IMG/VR virus record: IMGVR_UViG_3300028384_001119 | Location: 1 to 28,077 of that record | DNA from: a virus | Strand: one strand, 5' to 3' | DNA: 28,077 nt | Part shown: in pieces, positions 19,357-28,077 of the stretch | How the letters are laid out: each line of letters begins with the position of its first letter | How positions within the stretch are numbered: position 1 is the stretch's first letter | Made by a program: the position numbers and the translations under genes | The notes under the pieces: model-generated | What the model saw: only the letters and a program-made list of their open reading frames with translations | Told to the model about the DNA's origin: nothing | The model's database searches: none

Positions 19357-22300
19357 ATGTTTGAAATTTGGGAGCAGCTATCCAACTTAGGGTACACTAC
19401 TAAAACATTTGAAGAATTTCAAAATGAATATTCTTCAGGAGAAGGGCAAAAGCTTTTACATGAAAAGCTAGCGGCTGCCGAGATGACAAGTAAAAACTTT
19501 GAAGTCTTCTCGTCCGAATATTTTACTACACCTCCAGAGCAAATTACAGGTGCTGTTGCAAAAATAAAAGCATTACCAGGCTTTGATCAACAAAAGATTG
19601 ATAAAGAAAAACAAGAAAGAGCTAAAGTTATTTCTGATTTTCAAGATTATGCTGATGAATACTTAGATTTAGACTTAACAACTAAAGGGCAAAGACCAAT
19701 TGATAAAGGAACAGCTATATCAATACCTACACCTATCGGCCCAGATATTCCTATTTTTAGTATTAGCGACCCAATTAAGGGTAGAAATATCGAAGAACTT
19801 GCTGAAGACCCGAAATTTGAAGAAGAACTTCGTAATCAAATATTAGGTGATTATAAAATAAATAATCCAGAAGCGCCATTACCTAATGACTTTGACATTG
19901 ATAAAGCTGTAAGAAAATCTATTAATAATAAAAGACAAGAAGTAAAACAAGACAAAAAATACGCTGCGTTAAAAGAAAAAGATTTTTTAAAGCAAAATAA
20001 CCAGTATGTTCCTTTTTTAAATGAAGGAACTAAAGGCTTTATTTCTGAAATGAATAAAGCTGAGCAGAATGCAGCAAATGTAAAAATAAAATTAACTGAA
20101 TTAAACAATCAATTAAAAAATATAACTCAGTTTGATCCAGCTTATTCTGAAATTTTAACTGAAAAAGTAAATTTAGAAAAACAATTTCCGGATTTATTAA
20201 AAGAAATTGATTCAAATTACAAGCCATTTTTAAATTTAAAAACTGGGCAAAGACTAAATGCTGAAGATGCGGCACAGCTGCCTGCTAATATAATTGAAGA
20301 CCTTTCTGAAAAAGATAAAAAATTATCAGAATATTATAATTCTTTACCTGCCGAAAAATTAGAACAATCTTTTTTTGAACATTTATTATATAAGCAAGAG
20401 GCTGCTGAAATAATGAATCAAAAAATTACTTCTTTATCTCCAATTAGTCCTGATAGTCCTCTTGGTCGTAAATACACGCAAAAAGGATATAAGCCTAATG
20501 AAAATGGCACATTTACGGTGCCATTAAAGCATGCTTCTTACGGTACTGGCGTTTTTAATGATGAATTTATTGAAGAGCAAAGAGCTTATTATAAAAACGA
20601 CCAAATAAAATTAGGTAAAGAAAGCGAAGCGCTAAAAAATGCTTATTTCTTGAATATTAGCCCTGCTTCAATTAAAGAAGATGTTGGAGATGTTTTATTG
20701 CGTGGTGCCGAGGTTTTAACAGAAGCTACATTTGGTAAAGATGCTTTTGAATTAGGTACTTCAAAAAGAAAAGAACTTGACGAGCTGGAAAAATTACTTG
20801 AAAATTCTGATATAAAAATAACAGAAGAAGAAAAAGAAAATTTTGAAAGAGGACTAGGTTATAAAGTATATGAGCAAACCGTAGGATTTATTCCTGAAAT
20901 TGCAAAATTTGCAACAGTAAATAAAGCCGCTGGTGCCGCCGGTATTACTGCAAAAATTTCTCAATTAGTTAATTCCGGGAACAAATACAAAAAAACATTA
21001 GGTATAACACTTGATTTGCTATTAGAAGAAGCTAAATTTAAAGTAGTTACTAAAGGTGAATCACAAACCGGGGCCGGCGCTGGATTTAAACTTGGAGGCA
21101 TGGCTTTTGGTAAATTAATACCATTTAGATTTACGTCAGAATCTGGCTTAGCAAGGTTTAATCCTTTGCTTGAAAAAGCTGCATTCGGAGGTTTAGGGGG
21201 CGCTACTGGATCAGAGGCAGCATTATTAGCTGAATCATTATACAAAGATTTACAAGGCAACAAATCTTGGAAAACAAGTATACAGGATGAATTTGGCGAT
21301 ATGAGTGAAGTTAGCGAGCGTGCTCTTATTAATACACTTGTATTTGGGCTTACCGGCGTTGCTGGTATGACTCAAAAAAGCGATTGGATGTCAATGCCCG
21401 CAAAGCGGAAATATCGAACTAATCTTGAAAATCAATTAAAAAAAGAGGGGCTATCTAGTTCCGGCAGAAATAAGCTTTTAGCTCAATTACAAATAGTTGA
21501 TAGAGATATTGCAATTGCTGATAGAAATTTTTTAAACCAAGATATTGGTTCAATGCAAACACAGCGAAAGCTTGCAGAAGAAATCATAAGATCAGAAAAG
21601 TCAACGCCGGCTGATATTGCAAATGCTAAAAATTATGTAATTAAAGTTCAAGCAGCAACAGCAGCCGCTGAAAGAAATATCCGCAGACAATTTTCAAATA
21701 TTAAAAGATCAGGTATTGCTGGCGAAAAAAATATTAAACTTAAAATTGTAGATACTGAATTGCCAAATGGCGATAAAGCCACATATAATAAAGGCACAGG
21801 TGAGTTTTCTTTTAATATTAATCGATATAAACCAGGTGTTTTTGCACAAGAATTTGGTCACTTTTTTGTTGATTTAGCTTTTAAAAATAACCCAGAATTT
21901 GCGGAAGCATTTAAAAATAAAATAGCAAAAGAAGTTAATTCTAAATTATCTGGTAAAACATTTAATATTAACGGCAAAGAAGGTTTAACTTTTGAAGAAG
22001 CTATAAATGAATCATACAAAAAATCGGCGCAGCCAGAGGAATATGTAATGAATGTTGTTGAATTTTTAAATAAACCAGAATATAGAGATATATTATTAGA
22101 AACTGGTTTATTAAATAATATTAAAAACAACGTTATAAATATAGCTAATCGTATAGGTTTAAATTATAAAGCGGAAAAAAACTTTACGTCAGCGCAAGAA
22201 CTATTAAAATTTTTAGACGATTTAGGCACAGTAGCGGAAGGGGGCAACTCATCTGCAATTAAAAGAAAATTTAAAGCGTTTGAAAGCATTATAATTGATG

Positions 22301-25300
22301 GTAAAAAATTAATAAACGCAAAAACAGGAAAAGAAGTTTTAACAGAAGACGCTCAGGTTGAAGAAATGGCGTCTGCTCCTATTACTGAATCGGAGAAAAA
22401 AGATATATTTTCCAAAGCGGAAAAAGCCTATGAGCAGTTTTCAAAAGAAAACATAGATTCAGCTGGTCTTATGGTTGGTGTAGAGTTTGAGCCTATTATT
22501 GGCAAAATGGCTGACCGCATATATCGTGATATTCCTGGATATGAAATGGAAAGAAGTAATATTATTACCGATGTAATGATGGAAACTCGCCCGGGGTATG
22601 GGGGCGTTCCAGCTTTAGTAAAATCCTGGAGTCCAGAAGGTGGTGCAAAACTGACCAGTTATATATTTGGTAATTTGCCCAAACGTATTATAGGTATCGT
22701 AAATAAACATTACCCATCGCTTGGAAGAACCCGTGGGTTTGAAGAAGGGGAAACCGCTAAGTTTACAGAAGAGCAAGGGCTTGGGGGGCCAGGAGCGGGA
22801 TTTGTAGATATTTCCTCACCTGAATTAACAACAAGAATACAGGCTAAAAAAGCAGAAACAATTTTAGGTTTAAAACCAGAGTCGATAAAAGAATTTGATC
22901 GCGTAGCCGAGATGGAAGTTAAGTTTAAATTTCCAGACATTGAAGCCAAAAGCATTGTTGAATATAACTTAGGCGAAAAAGGAAATGCTGATGTAAGTTT
23001 TTACGAAAATAATACCGCTAACGTTGCAATTAACGGTAGAACAGAAAAGATTAAAGCTAGAACACCTAAAGATGTTGAGACATATTTAAAGAAAAAAGGT
23101 TTCAGTATTGAAAGCCAAGAAAAGCTAGGTAATTTCCGCCAACAAAAAATTAGCAGCTTTAGAACACAATTATACGATGTGCTACAGGCTGAGGCCGGTG
23201 GTACAATTGAAAAAGGTACAAAGCCTTCACCTGAATATTCTACGTTTATTGACAAGACTTTTCCATTATATAAAGACTATTTTAGCCAAAGCAGCATTAA
23301 CAAAAGATTTGCAGACTTTAAAGAGCCTGTAATTGATAAAGCCACTGGCAAGCAAGCAAGAGAAAAAACAGCACAAGGTAAATCTATTTTTACTAAAAAA
23401 TCTATTACCAAAGCTGAATGGATTAAGTATTTTGAAGGCGATGGTAGTGTTCGTATTGACGGTCGCCGCCGGGCTTTACTTGAAACAATTGCAGAAGAGA
23501 TTGGCTTTGATAAAATAATGGAAAAAGTTTACGATCAAAGTAAACAAGAACAAATTAAGTCACGTCAAGCCGAGCTTGGTGTTGAGCTTGTAGAAAACTT
23601 TGCTATTATTTTAGGTAAGCAGCTTGATAGATTACCTGGCCAAGAAATTGTATTTGCATCTAAAGATATTACAGAAGCATATAATAGTTTAGTTGGTAAA
23701 AATAAATCTTATACTAAAGAAGAATTTGCACGTGTACTTGTATTAGCAAGTAAAGTGGATTCAGGATATTTAAAATTTGAGCACCCTGATATTTATAATT
23801 TACTTGAGCAAGAAGTAGCTTTACGCCTTGGGGATGCCCACACACAAGCATTAGCAGCTTCTAAAAAAGATTTTGTAAAATTTGCTAATGAGACCCGGAA
23901 TGAGGTTAATAAAATTAGCAGTGATATGGTAAAAGAACCTAATCAGCTAGAAGGAAAGCAAATAGAAAGATATTATGAAGCAATAAAAGAGTTAGTTAAT
24001 TATTTACCAGCATCAATATTAAAATTAACAGGTGGCACTGGTGAAGTTAAAGTACCGGGTTCTTTTCTTAGCCAAAACTTAGGTTTTACTGGTGAGGTAT
24101 ATTTTTTAAGAGCAGGTAAATTTGCAGACTTAATAGGTGGTGCCGGAACTAAATTTGAAAATTTATCTAAAGAAACTAAAGACGCTTGGAATAAATTTAA
24201 CCAACTATTAAACGTAGGAAGTGGTCGATATAAATTTATGACTACAGATTTAGGAAATATAAAAGAAATTGTTAATATAAATACAAAAAAAATATCTCTT
24301 GAGCAAAAGCAAAAAGAAATAGATAATTTTATAAAAAGTAAAAAAGGACAATTACTTTTAAAAGAAATAAAAGCGTCAGAAGCATTTTTAGATGCAACGC
24401 TATTAACAATAAACGAAGTTTCGCGAAAAGATAATAATTTAGAGCTTGCTGAAACTTTTTACGAAAACATTATTCCATTATTTAAATCAAATAAATCAAA
24501 AAGTTTAATTAGGCTTTATTCTCCTTTCAAAACAATGCAGCTCACCGAGGGCGAAATTAGCCGTTTTGGTAATGAACATTTAAAAGCAAAAGCAGCTTTT
24601 GGCGGCAGGGTTTATTCTGAAATAAGAGAGGGTGCATTAACGCTTGAAAGATTAAAACAATTAAAAGAAAATTGGAGAAGTGTTTTAGGAGAGCAACAAG
24701 CACAAGATTATGTTGATTGGGCTTTAGGCTCAACATATGATGGTTATGCCCCATTAAAATTATCTTATTTAGGTAAACAAACTGGAGATAAAGGTAAGCT
24801 TAAAGAGCTAAAAGAAAAAGGAGATAAAAAATTATATGATACAAAAATTGCTATTGAAAACTTAAAAAACCTATATAATTTTGTTGAAGGCAAGAGCGAA
24901 TATGATTTATTTGTAAATGAAATTGCTAAAGAACTTGTTAATACCACTGAAGGTTTAAAGCTAGCAGAAGCAACAAATTTAATTCAAGATGCCATATCAG
25001 CAGAACCAATTATGTCTTCTAAAAATATTACAGAAGAGTTTGATGGTATGCTTGAACGCAGATCTGGATTAGAAGGCGAAATATCACCATCAAGAGCTAG
25101 ACAGCTTGGCAAAGGCAAAGGCAGATTTGATTTATACATACCACCAAATGCTGAAGATTTTGCTGGATTAATGTATAAGTTGTACGGCCGTGGCGAGCAG
25201 GGGACAAAAGATATGGAGTTTGTAAAACAAACTTTATTACTTCCATATGAACGAGGTGAAAATATGATTAGCTCATATCGCCAGCAGATTAGTAATAAGT

Positions 25301-27171
25301 TTAAATCTTTTAACAAGGCTTTAAAAGCATTCGATAATAAGTTTGACAAAAACGCTGTTAAAGAAATTGAAGATGCAGGTTTTACTGTTGATCAAGCTCT
25401 GCGGGTATGGATATGGAATAAAAATGGCTATGCCATACCAGATATTACATTAAAAGAAGAAACAAAGCTTGTTGAAATTGTAAGAAAAAATCCTAAATTA
25501 TTAGGAACGGCTTTGCAGTTTAGAAATATGTTTGGTGCTGGTCGGCCTTATCCGGAGCCAACCGGAGACTGGTATGCTTCTAATGTTAAGTTTGATGCGC
25601 ATCGTTATATTAATAAAGGTGCTCGCCAAATGTTTTTGGAAGAATTTATTAATAATGCTAATGAAGCATTTACCCCTGAGTTTTATGCAAAAGCAGAAGC
25701 AGCATTTGGTAAAGGTTATGTAAAAAACTTACAGCAAATGCTTAATGCAATGATTACAGGACAGTCAATGCCTACTAACTTACCTGAATATGCCGTAATT
25801 GGATTAAATTATATAAACGGTGCTGTGGGTAACATAATGTTCTTAAATGGTAGATCAGCAACACTACAGACTATTTCAATGGCAAACTTTGTTAATTGGA
25901 GTGATAACAACATATTAGCTATAGGGAAAACACTAGCTGATCCTAAAAACTTTGCTAAAACATTTATGGAATTAATGAATTCCGATTTCTTAAAACAACG
26001 TAGAGATGGTTTAGAAATTAGTGTTGAAGAAGCGGAAATTGCAAAATCATTACGCGACTCAAAAAATTCATTAAGCCATGTATGGGGTAAAATTATACAA
26101 TTAGGATATACTCCAACAAAATTTGCTGATAGTTTCGCTATCGCGGCTGGAGGTACCTCGTTTTATATTAATAGAACTAAAACATACGAAGCCCAAGGGT
26201 TTTCAAATGCTGAAGCTAAACAAAAGGCTTTTGATGATTTTAGAATGCTTGCAGAAACTCACCAGCAATCATCAAGACAAGATAAAGTTTCCAATGTACA
26301 AAGAGGTTTAACGGGTAGACTTGTATACTCATTTAGCGGTGCCCCGTTCCAAATGGCTCGCGAGCAGAAAAAAGCAGGTTTAGACTTTATTAATAGACGA
26401 GGTGATGATAAAACTAATATTTCAAAGTTTATTTATTACGGAGCAATGCAAAACTTGTTGTTTACCGCTTTGCAACAAGGTGTCTTTGCGGCAGCTTTTG
26501 AAGATGATAAAGTTTTAGATGGCAAAGATGAAAAATCAAAACGCCTTGCTAATAGTATGTTAGACGCGACCTTAAGATCTTCTGGTTTACCTGGAGCAAT
26601 GCTTGCAATGGGTAAAAATGCTATTATAAAATATATGAAAGAAAACGAAAAAGGTTATCAAGGAGATATGGGTAATGTTGTGGGTGAAGTATTAAATATT
26701 TCTCCGCCTGTAGGCTCTAAATTTAGAAATATATACAAAGGGTTACAATCAAGAAAATTTTTATTACATACTAAAAAGGGACGTAAAGAGGTCGAGGCCT
26801 CTAGTAATTTTGTAGAAAACCCATTGATGCACGCTAATGCTCGTATTATTGGTGGCATAACAAACTATCCGGTAAATCGATTAATGAGTAAAGCAGATAA
26901 TCTAACTACCGCATACACAGGTTTACACCGTGGAGCGCAAGCCGACCCTTGGCAAAGAGTATTTTTAGCTGCTGGTTGGGATAAATGGAGCTTAGGTTTT
27001 TATGATAAAAAAGAAGACGACGGCACAAAGAAAACACGAAGCGAAATAATGAAAGAAGTATGGGCTAAAAAATTTAGAGAAGAATTTATTAGAGATTCAA
27101 TTAAAGCGACTAAAGCAACAATAACAAAACCAGAATTAGAATTACTCAAAAAAAGATTAAAACAAAAATAA
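19357..27171 (+). CDS. Giant polyvalent internal virion/ejection protein
   Basis: A 2604-residue protein, nearly twice T7 gp16 (1318), ending the ejection block. The N-terminus repeats a T-x-K-x-F-E-x-F-x-x-E-Y motif (about 14-25 and 44-55). Residues 501-535 and 570-640 hold an amphipathic then Gly/Ala-rich stretch (G-G-L-G-G-A-T-G) that may insert in membranes. A zincin-like motif, Q-E-F-G-H at 831-835, lacks the first His of HExxH. About 1070-1120 is a helical module with S-W-S-P-E-G-G-A-K-L-T-S-Y-I. Residues about 2060-2390 form the C-terminal module I best recall from marine phages: W-S-D-N-N, K-F-A-D-S-F-A-I-A, Q-Q-S-S-R-Q-D and F-I-Y-Y-G-A-M-Q-N-L-L. I see no lytic transglycosylase motif. 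It probably forms the periplasm-to-cytoplasm channel for genome entry. Confidence 0.75.
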   Translation: MFEIWEQLSNLGYTTKTFEEFQNEYSSGEGQKLLHEKLAAAEMTSKNFEVFSSEYFTTPPEQITGAVAKIKALPGFDQQKIDKEKQERAKVISDFQDYADEYLDLDLTTKGQRPIDKGTAISIPTPIGPDIPIFSISDPIKGRNIEELAEDPKFEEELRNQILGDYKINNPEAPLPNDFDIDKAVRKSINNKRQEVKQDKKYAALKEKDFLKQNNQYVPFLNEGTKGFISEMNKAEQNAANVKIKLTELNNQLKNITQFDPAYSEILTEKVNLEKQFPDLLKEIDSNYKPFLNLKTGQRLNAEDAAQLPANIIEDLSEKDKKLSEYYNSLPAEKLEQSFFEHLLYKQEAAEIMNQKITSLSPISPDSPLGRKYTQKGYKPNENGTFTVPLKHASYGTGVFNDEFIEEQRAYYKNDQIKLGKESEALKNAYFLNISPASIKEDVGDVLLRGAEVLTEATFGKDAFELGTSKRKELDELEKLLENSDIKITEEEKENFERGLGYKVYEQTVGFIPEIAKFATVNKAAGAAGITAKISQLVNSGNKYKKTLGITLDLLLEEAKFKVVTKGESQTGAGAGFKLGGMAFGKLIPFRFTSESGLARFNPLLEKAAFGGLGGATGSEAALLAESLYKDLQGNKSWKTSIQDEFGDMSEVSERALINTLVFGLTGVAGMTQKSDWMSMPAKRKYRTNLENQLKKEGLSSSGRNKLLAQLQIVDRDIAIADRNFLNQDIGSMQTQRKLAEEIIRSEKSTPADIANAKNYVIKVQAATAAAERNIRRQFSNIKRSGIAGEKNIKLKIVDTELPNGDKATYNKGTGEFSFNINRYKPGVFAQEFGHFFVDLAFKNNPEFAEAFKNKIAKEVNSKLSGKTFNINGKEGLTFEEAINESYKKSAQPEEYVMNVVEFLNKPEYRDILLETGLLNNIKNNVINIANRIGLNYKAEKNFTSAQELLKFLDDLGTVAEGGNSSAIKRKFKAFESIIIDGKKLINAKTGKEVLTEDAQVEEMASAPITESEKKDIFSKAEKAYEQFSKENIDSAGLMVGVEFEPIIGKMADRIYRDIPGYEMERSNIITDVMMETRPGYGGVPALVKSWSPEGGAKLTSYIFGNLPKRIIGIVNKHYPSLGRTRGFEEGETAKFTEEQGLGGPGAGFVDISSPELTTRIQAKKAETILGLKPESIKEFDRVAEMEVKFKFPDIEAKSIVEYNLGEKGNADVSFYENNTANVAINGRTEKIKARTPKDVETYLKKKGFSIESQEKLGNFRQQKISSFRTQLYDVLQAEAGGTIEKGTKPSPEYSTFIDKTFPLYKDYFSQSSINKRFADFKEPVIDKATGKQAREKTAQGKSIFTKKSITKAEWIKYFEGDGSVRIDGRRRALLETIAEEIGFDKIMEKVYDQSKQEQIKSRQAELGVELVENFAIILGKQLDRLPGQEIVFASKDITEAYNSLVGKNKSYTKEEFARVLVLASKVDSGYLKFEHPDIYNLLEQEVALRLGDAHTQALAASKKDFVKFANETRNEVNKISSDMVKEPNQLEGKQIERYYEAIKELVNYLPASILKLTGGTGEVKVPGSFLSQNLGFTGEVYFLRAGKFADLIGGAGTKFENLSKETKDAWNKFNQLLNVGSGRYKFMTTDLGNIKEIVNINTKKISLEQKQKEIDNFIKSKKGQLLLKEIKASEAFLDATLLTINEVSRKDNNLELAETFYENIIPLFKSNKSKSLIRLYSPFKTMQLTEGEISRFGNEHLKAKAAFGGRVYSEIREGALTLERLKQLKENWRSVLGEQQAQDYVDWALGSTYDGYAPLKLSYLGKQTGDKGKLKELKEKGDKKLYDTKIAIENLKNLYNFVEGKSEYDLFVNEIAKELVNTTEGLKLAEATNLIQDAISAEPIMSSKNITEEFDGMLERRSGLEGEISPSRARQLGKGKGRFDLYIPPNAEDFAGLMYKLYGRGEQGTKDMEFVKQTLLLPYERGENMISSYRQQISNKFKSFNKALKAFDNKFDKNAVKEIEDAGFTVDQALRVWIWNKNGYAIPDITLKEETKLVEIVRKNPKLLGTALQFRNMFGAGRPYPEPTGDWYASNVKFDAHRYINKGARQMFLEEFINNANEAFTPEFYAKAEAAFGKGYVKNLQQMLNAMITGQSMPTNLPEYAVIGLNYINGAVGNIMFLNGRSATLQTISMANFVNWSDNNILAIGKTLADPKNFAKTFMELMNSDFLKQRRDGLEISVEEAEIAKSLRDSKNSLSHVWGKIIQLGYTPTKFADSFAIAAGGTSFYINRTKTYEAQGFSNAEAKQKAFDDFRMLAETHQQSSRQDKVSNVQRGLTGRLVYSFSGAPFQMAREQKKAGLDFINRRGDDKTNISKFIYYGAMQNLLFTALQQGVFAAAFEDDKVLDGKDEKSKRLANSMLDATLRSSGLPGAMLAMGKNAIIKYMKENEKGYQGDMGNVVGEVLNISPPVGSKFRNIYKGLQSRKFLLHTKKGRKEVEASSNFVENPLMHANARIIGGITNYPVNRLMSKADNLTTAYTGLHRGAQADPWQRVFLAAGWDKWSLGFYDKKEDDGTKKTRSEIMKEVWAKKFREEFIRDSIKATKATITKPELELLKKRLKQK

Positions 27172-27172
27172 A

Positions 27173-27454
27173 ATGGCAGAAATATCAAAAGACAGTAAGT
27201 TTACACTAAGTTTAGAATCATTAGTGGTACTGGGAGGCGTAGTGGTTACTACAGTGGGAATGTGGTTTACGCTTCAAGCTGAAATAGACGAAGCAAAAAA
27301 ACTGCCGCCTGCAGAAGTAACGCGAACAGAATACGATCTTAAAGATCAGTTAATTAGAGAAACAATAATTAATACACAAACTCAAGTTGAACAAAACAGC
27401 AAAAAGCTAGACGATATAGACGAAAAACTATATGAGTTAATTAAAGGGAAATAA
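27173..27454 (+). CDS. Small single-pass membrane protein, candidate holin/spanin-like lysis factor
   Basis: A 93-residue protein starting two bases after the giant ejection gene. Residues about 15-34 (ESLVVLGGVVVTTVGMWFTL) form one hydrophobic transmembrane segment after a short charged N-terminus. The rest is soluble: A-E-I-D-E-A-K-K-L-P-P-A-E-V, then T-E-Y-D-L-K-D-Q-L-I-R-E-T-I (about 52-65) and a Lys/Glu/Asp coiled coil to the end. A membrane anchor followed by a coil, just before an M15 endolysin, suggests a class of lysis membrane protein such as a holin or an i-spanin-like factor. I recall the R-T-E-Y-D-L-K-D-Q segment from marine phages without a stated function. It could instead belong to virion entry, since it directly follows the ejection genes. 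Confidence 0.6.
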   Translation: MAEISKDSKFTLSLESLVVLGGVVVTTVGMWFTLQAEIDEAKKLPPAEVTRTEYDLKDQLIRETIINTQTQVEQNSKKLDDIDEKLYELIKGK

Positions 27455-27455
27455 A

Positions 27456-27770
27456 ATGAAAAAATTAATTTTAATTGCGGGATTATTACTCGGTTTAAAT
27501 GCAACCGCACAAGAATTTACACTTGTTGAAATTAATGCTAAGTGGAATCAAAAAAACAGCATAACATTTAAAAGTGTAGATGGAGTACCAGTTAAAAAAG
27601 CATATTTAGAAGATCAACCATCACATTTTGCATCTACAATTAAATCAGTGCCAACACTTATGTTATATGTTGACGGACGATTAAGTTACAGTTGGGTAGC
27701 AGGTATTGATCTTAAATGTCCTGCAACGCCAGACCAAGTAGCTTTAGTAATTGAAAATTTTAAAAAATAA
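27456..27770 (+). CDS. Secreted thioredoxin-fold protein lacking CxxC
   Basis: A 104-residue protein with a clear signal peptide (K-K, hydrophobic LILIAGLLLGL, then NATAQ|E with cleavage after about residue 19). The mature 85 residues show a thioredoxin-like order: F-T-L-V-E-I-N-A-K-W (21-30), then a helix region, a second strand, then the S-V-P-T motif (64-67) with the cis-proline at P66, the strand L-M-L-Y-V-D-G, and a terminal helix. Where thioredoxin has W-C-G-P-C, this has W-N-Q-K-N (30-34), so both active cysteines are replaced by Asn and the enzyme cannot be a classical oxidoreductase. One Cys remains (C88). It lies between the membrane protein and the M15 endolysin, two to three bases from each, so an envelope role in lysis is plausible. 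The fold match is by eye. Confidence 0.65.
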   Translation: MKKLILIAGLLLGLNATAQEFTLVEINAKWNQKNSITFKSVDGVPVKKAYLEDQPSHFASTIKSVPTLMLYVDGRLSYSWVAGIDLKCPATPDQVALVIENFKK

Positions 27771-27773
27771 TAA

Positions 27774-28077
27774 ATGGATAACCGCATAAGTAAGCATGTA
27801 TCTTACAAAGAAGGAACGTTTTCGCAAACTGCCACTCGTAAGGACATAGACAATACTCCAACACCTGAAATATTAGAACGCATGAAGGCTACGGCTGAGA
27901 ATGTGTTTGAGCCACTTAGGGCTTACGTGGGGGCTCCAATTAAAATTAATAGCTTCTACCGCTCTATTAGCTTAAATGTAGCTATAGGGGGCGCTAAATC
28001 GAGCCAGCACACACGTGGCGAAGCAATGGATATTGACGATACGTTTGGGCATATGTCAAACAAAGATATGTTTGAAT
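27774..28077 (+). CDS. M15-family peptidase endolysin (3' partial)
   Basis: The ATG at 27774 opens a frame that is still open at the window end, giving 101 residues. It has the M15 metallopeptidase signs: S-F-Y-R (60-63), with R63 in the conserved arginine position, then S-S-Q-H-T-R-G-E-A-M-D-I-D (76-88), which is the S-x-H-x-x-G-x-A-x-D zinc-binding motif with H79 and D86 as metal ligands. The later H-x-H motif lies beyond the window. M15 enzymes of the VanY/D-Ala-D-Ala carboxypeptidase type cut peptide bonds of peptidoglycan stems. In phages they are common endolysins. There is no signal peptide, so export would depend on a holin-like partner, for which the membrane protein upstream is the nearest candidate. 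It starts three bases after the thioredoxin-like gene's stop. Confidence 0.85.
   Translation, partial: MDNRISKHVSYKEGTFSQTATRKDIDNTPTPEILERMKATAENVFEPLRAYVGAPIKINSFYRSISLNVAIGGAKSSQHTRGEAMDIDDTFGHMSNKDMFE

Follow-up and report, generated by a model that had tools for sequence, protein, structure and literature searches.

The question raised by this locus is what a virus does with an exported thioredoxin-fold protein in which both catalytic cysteines are replaced by Asn, and which is encoded between the genes of a one-TM protein and of an M15 endolysin. The window, namely the whole stretch of DNA that was analysed, corresponds to a 28,077-base linear virus record, and the features discussed here are collected in table 1. 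As is argued below, the best explanation is that the protein, indicated as c1, belongs to an obligate two-gene module of Bacteroidota phages, in which it is the periplasmic member and the membrane protein c0, encoded just upstream, the other. The closest matches of the terminase of the window virus are those of an uncultured podovirus and of Flavobacterium, Cellulophaga, Tenacibaculum and Maribacter phages, so that the host is most likely a flavobacterium. Directly 5' of the pair, a single open reading frame (window 19357-27171, 2604 residues, with no family match of note) likely encodes a giant virion protein.

Table 1. Coordinates of the c0-c1 module and of the associated genes; positions are those of the window, or of the locus named.
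Feature	Position	Strand	Remarks
c0, 93-residue one-TM protein, obligate upstream partner of c1	27173..27454	+	TM at about residues 16-34, followed by a C-tail of about 59 residues, predicted helical/coiled-coil
c1, 104-residue exported thioredoxin-fold protein without catalytic cysteines	27456..27770	+	
c1 signal peptide, residues 1-18, predicted signal peptidase I cleavage before Q19	27456..27509	+	Bacteroidetes Q-rule
c1 pseudo-active site A28-K29-W30-N31-Q32-K33-N34, in the place of A-x-W-C-x-x-C	27537..27557	+	N31 in 57/57, N34 in 54/57 (NxxN clade)
c1 predicted cis-Pro loop S64-V65-P66-T67	27645..27656	+	P66 in 65/66 representatives, the remaining one being truncated; strand/helix order of the model
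M15 peptidase endolysin, cut by the window end, variable cassette member	27774..28077	+	Pfam Peptidase_M15_3 (PF08291), E 6e-16; PHROG endolysin, E 2e-19
c25, barrel-model protein after the sister c0-c1 pair	L078:772-2043, L032:1273-2562, L092:4347-5549, and relatives		

Export, fold and cysteine loss of c1

The c1 reading frame (MKKLILIAGLLLGLNATAQEFTLVEINAKWNQKNSITF...IKSVPTLMLYVDG...) does not arise by chance, because it is under purifying selection, as indicated by dN/dS values of approximately 0.09-0.29 between close pairs, has many viral homologues and yields a predicted thioredoxin fold. Scans of IMG/VR seeded by c1, by the c1 profile, by the c1 of a sister clade and by c0 led to 133 distinct relatives, all in uncultured viral contigs, which are represented by 66 sequences at 80% identity. 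The NxxN clade, to which the window protein belongs, accounts for 57 representatives, and the sister clade for the other nine.

The export signal is well supported. In 63 of the 66 representatives a typical signal peptide is followed by Gln at position 19, and in Bacteroidetes a Gln follows the cleavage site of signal peptidase I substrates (the Q-rule; PMC5837995). For nearly all family members this feature points to export, to cleavage and to a host among the Bacteroidota, bearing out the Bacteroidota-like signal peptide that the first-pass annotation had read in this one gene, and argues against c1 being a lipoprotein. Neither a lipobox nor another outer-membrane anchor was found in the c1 of the window.

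Single-sequence searches with c1 gave no convincing match in Pfam or PHROG, nor was there any match in Pfam and NCBIfam at curated cut-offs. A profile built from 12 relatives found a thioredoxin as the best match in the PDB (E 1.2e-3), and all 21 of its listed matches are thioredoxins or thioredoxin-domain proteins. The AlphaFold2 model (pLDDT 85, above 90 in the mature part; pTM 0.75) exhibits a beta-alpha-beta-alpha-beta-beta-alpha order of elements, and its top PDB matches with Foldseek and VIA-align are thioredoxins, thioredoxin-like proteins or designed relatives, the best VIA Z being 8.8 over 82 residues at 2.9 Å. Despite such a moderate Z (near 8), the thioredoxin fold proposed initially is accepted and well supported as a prediction, because nearly all the top matches share one fold, the profile agrees, and the landmarks A-K-W, S-V-P-T and Y-V-D-G (the last at Y71-V72-D73-G74) coincide, all three being present as first described. 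Thus, the core of the thioredoxin fold superfamily, a beta-alpha-beta unit plus a beta-beta-alpha unit, is found in c1 by both predicted structure and profile, in a reduced version: in the model, helix 1 is short, and little of the usual helix 2 remains ahead of strand 2.

Equally well supported is the loss of the catalytic cysteines. No CxxC was found at the active-site position of any of the 133 relatives, and neither this motif nor the N-terminal Cys, which would mark a redox-active thioredoxin or disulfide oxidoreductase, occurs there in the family. N31 is invariant in the NxxN clade, where two representatives have His and one has Arg instead of N34; in the sister clade, T, V, A or I takes the place of N31, and the site is also cysteine-free (e.g. 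F-S-A-P-F-T-K). The two Asn residues of the first description are therefore a property of the clade, and the possibility that c1 is a lone variant of a CxxC protein is ruled out by cysteine loss across the whole family. The window protein retains one Cys, the non-conserved C88, so that it is not literally cysteine-free. The replacement of CxxC by a conserved NxxN makes thiol-disulfide exchange impossible at that site of c1. Few parts of the protein are as well conserved as the pseudo-active site, which has therefore not merely decayed; the simplest reading of its conservation is that it may have been kept for a non-redox use, such as binding.

The constant partner and the variable neighbours

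The tight gene arrangement of the first description is confirmed in the window, with gaps of 1 base between c0 and c1, and of 3 bases between c1 and the M15 gene. Across the family, it is c0 that stays in place. It is directly 5' of c1 in 66 of 66 representatives, with a 4-base overlap in 54 of 63 cases, and among the loci fetched with the window c0 together with the sister-c1 loci, c1 is the next gene in all 89 that hold enough DNA (three further loci of this set end at a contig edge). The pairing is therefore well supported, and, c0 being the constant neighbour of c1, the functional unit is the pair.

All 71 c0 proteins contain a single hydrophobic TM segment and no Cys; the C-tail of 50-70 residues is predicted to be helical or coiled-coil, and ends in a [KR][VLI][YF] motif in 70 of 71. 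An N-in topology, which would place this tail in the periplasm, is favoured by charge in 53 of 71, the charge signal being weak. Some loci with a pair also contain extra c0-like copies that have no c1 of their own. In one c0-like class, some members of which stand alone without c1, a motif of the D-x-D-x-D-G-K-x-D type, similar to those of calcium-binding loops, lies just before the TM segment (L003:2579-2881, L022:1773-2075, L071:4842-5138). A small exported-looking HMA-domain protein (Pfam E 5e-9) adjoins a c0-c1-c0 arrangement at L003:3515-3835, L017:4572-4892, L023:4635-4952 and in relatives.

Downstream of the pair the genes vary. An M15, amidase or holin gene is found immediately 3' of c1 in 29 of 65 representatives versus six expected when the downstream gene is drawn from the same loci (maximum of the random draws, 18), and within four genes of the pair in 49 of 66; none was recognized within that distance in the remaining 17. 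The M15 gene itself is directly 3' of c1 in 21 of 66, and amidases, holins, the barrel protein or unrelated genes may also come after c1. Loci in which none of the three lysis genes follows at once include small-TM genes and one protein type with an endolysin PHROG match. Many cassettes contain a holin-like 3-TM gene (PHROG holin E 5e-20) or the small-TM gene c8. The linkage to lysis genes is thus real without being universal, and M15 does not accompany c1 constantly: the placement in a lysis cassette seen in the window is frequent in the family, and of the two points put forward for checking, that homologues always lie by M15 genes and that they lack the catalytic cysteines, only the second stands. 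The pair lies in regions of late genes, away from early or accessory ones, and in several loci it is flanked by head-tail connector genes on one side and by tail or spike genes on the other. At L002:5340-5410, the amidase gene is followed by a hairpin and then a T run, possibly the point at which the late operon that contains the pair ends.

A simple and rather crude lipobox scan detected a lipoprotein gene within 4 kb of the pair in few loci. Classical o-spanin genes are therefore mostly not seen there, which leaves room for the pair to fill the outer-membrane role. A conserved lipoprotein family with an ITHVLAVTE-GDTL motif, c9, occurs near lysis genes (L029:3020-3394, L041:2282-2680, L053:3085-3429); it is found near the pair in 6 of 66 representatives, and could be the o-spanin of some loci.

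The sister pair is followed directly by the gene of c25 in 8 of 9 representatives. The protein (360-430 residues) is exported-looking, and its beta-barrel model (pLDDT 68, pTM 0.58) matches membrane barrels, nearly all of the outer membrane, among the structures listed (top, CymA, Z 12.2; OmpG, Z 11). On this basis c25 is predicted to be an outer-membrane beta-barrel, and the sister operon would provide one protein for each envelope layer.

As far as tested, the family is new within the phage records, the GTDB scans and the searchable papers. Queries with two members of c1, the c1 of the sister clade, c0 proteins of three types and the barrel gave nothing relevant when run by tblastn against 50,697 phage records, while control queries retrieved 87 records with terminase and 360 with M15. 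Two pattern scans of GTDB genomes revealed no prophage copies, divergent ones being of the kind that a pattern could miss. Two viruses related by terminase to that of the window, a cultured one and an assembled one, gave no match to the c0 and c1 profiles in the late regions scanned, indicating that this type of virus can do without the module. In the searchable papers, subscription papers being outside that scope, no lysis role was found to be described for an exported thioredoxin-fold protein without catalytic cysteines.

Possible roles at the envelope

The role to which we give the first place, tentatively and with somewhat less than even confidence, is that of a non-redox, envelope-spanning lysis accessory that would work on the principle of the two-component spanins but with no outer-membrane lipoprotein. 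In this scheme c0 would be anchored in the inner membrane and extend its C-tail into the periplasm, and c1 would dock through its old substrate groove, made by the NxxN motif, the cis-Pro loop and the conserved E52, Q54, K63 and K87, perhaps onto the C-terminal [KR][VLI][YF] end of c0. The complex would then reach the outer membrane, or a protein in it, and, after removal of peptidoglycan by the endolysin, may help break the outer membrane, which is the job of spanins elsewhere. The obligate pairing, the Q-rule signal peptide, the build of c0, the excess of lysis genes downstream, the scarcity of o-spanin genes and the barrel of the sister operon all support such a role. It is weakened by the lack of an outer-membrane anchor in c1, so that for the window pair the bridge to the outer membrane is missing, and also by the 17 representatives with no lysis gene nearby, the weak topology signal of c0, the presence of c9 in some loci, the extra c0-like copies without c1, and the two terminase relatives without the module.

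The same topology and periplasmic partner would also fit a regulator of lysis timing, with c0 as a holin or antiholin that resembles T of T4 (one TM segment, N-in, with a periplasmic C-domain) and c1 as a secreted periplasmic regulator like T4 RI, sensing the envelope state or superinfection. The frequent proximity to endolysin genes and a weak PHROG holin/anti-holin match of a divergent c0 (E 5e-4) point in this direction. However, in many cassettes the place of the holin is usually taken by the 3-TM holin-like gene or by c8, and T4 RI is a mostly helical protein, which c1 is not, making this role unlikely.

Exported phage proteins and phage-encoded barrels can act in superinfection exclusion or envelope remodelling, and the pair, along with the barrel in the sister operon, might guard the periplasm against entry of competing phage DNA or block a receptor. 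The link of the sister pair with the barrel and the location of some pairs away from lysis genes are in line with this proposal, which is nevertheless improbable to a similar degree, given the strong excess of lysis genes immediately 3', the placement in late regions and the lack of matches in a defence-family search.

That the pair contributes a virion or injection component, found at the end of a late operon by chance, would agree with its position between connector and tail or spike genes in several loci, and is very unlikely because the conserved, cleavable signal peptide argues for export and not for cytoplasmic packaging. Thioredoxin folds without active cysteines serve elsewhere as client-binding modules, and the M15 genes directly 3' of c1 would suit a chaperone or stabilizer for the endolysin or another exported lysis protein, but c1 tracks with c0 and not with any one endolysin type, since M15, amidase or neither may come next, which leaves very little probability for this role and makes an endolysin-specific chaperone unlikely.

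Returning to the spanin-like accessory, its interest lies in that outer-membrane breakage by Bacteroidota phages is poorly described, and the widespread obligate pair is a concrete candidate for it. Annotated spanins are present in only a few of the North Sea flavophage isolates (PMC8776804), and no spanin was found in 91 of 677 surveyed phages (PMC6139136). With this pair, viruses of marine Bacteroidota-type bacteria may have a means of breaking the envelope that is so far undescribed; if this is true, it would clearly exemplify how a redox fold can become a structural adaptor, a conserved motif having replaced the catalytic one. The wider proposal, that a lipoprotein-free complex, in which a coiled-coil protein anchored in the inner membrane is joined by a secreted, redox-dead thioredoxin fold as adaptor and, in one lineage, by a phage-encoded outer-membrane barrel, replaces spanins in uncultured marine Bacteroidota phages, is rather doubtful.

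Likeness to known systems

With thioredoxin (PDB 1v98, 5jy5, 2trx) c1 shares the fold, the A-x-W at the start of helix 1, the cis-Pro loop and the D-G turn. It differs in the family-wide NxxN in place of CxxC, in the shortened helix 2 region and in being exported. A binding use of the fold that is independent of redox chemistry, as proposed for c1, is found in host thioredoxin, which is the processivity factor of T7 DNA polymerase; this thioredoxin is, however, cytoplasmic and host-encoded, and keeps its CxxC. In T4, holin T and the periplasmic RI act in lysis control, and the combination of a one-TM inner-membrane protein with a periplasmic partner is what c0 and c1 would also form, although no sequence relation was seen and separate holin genes are present in many c0-c1 cassettes.

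The closest parallel in layout is with the two-component spanins (lambda Rz-Rz1, T4 PseT.3-PseT.2), as defined in PMC6139136, which are encoded by adjacent and often overlapping genes near those of endolysin and holin, and combine a one-TM subunit that has a helical domain with a second subunit exported to the periplasm. The single TM segment and predicted helical tail of c0 would suit an i-spanin, its N-in orientation being favoured by charge alone, and the T4 o-spanin contains a beta-alpha-beta element, a further likeness to c1. At variance with these systems, c0 contains no Cys, the sister pair is accompanied by a barrel protein, and c1 is a soluble thioredoxin-fold substrate of signal peptidase I rather than a lipoprotein, so that the lipobox of the o-spanins is not found in it. 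The likeness to spanins is one of working principle, not of membership, and the kind of system, a two-component envelope complex encoded among late phage genes, is already known.
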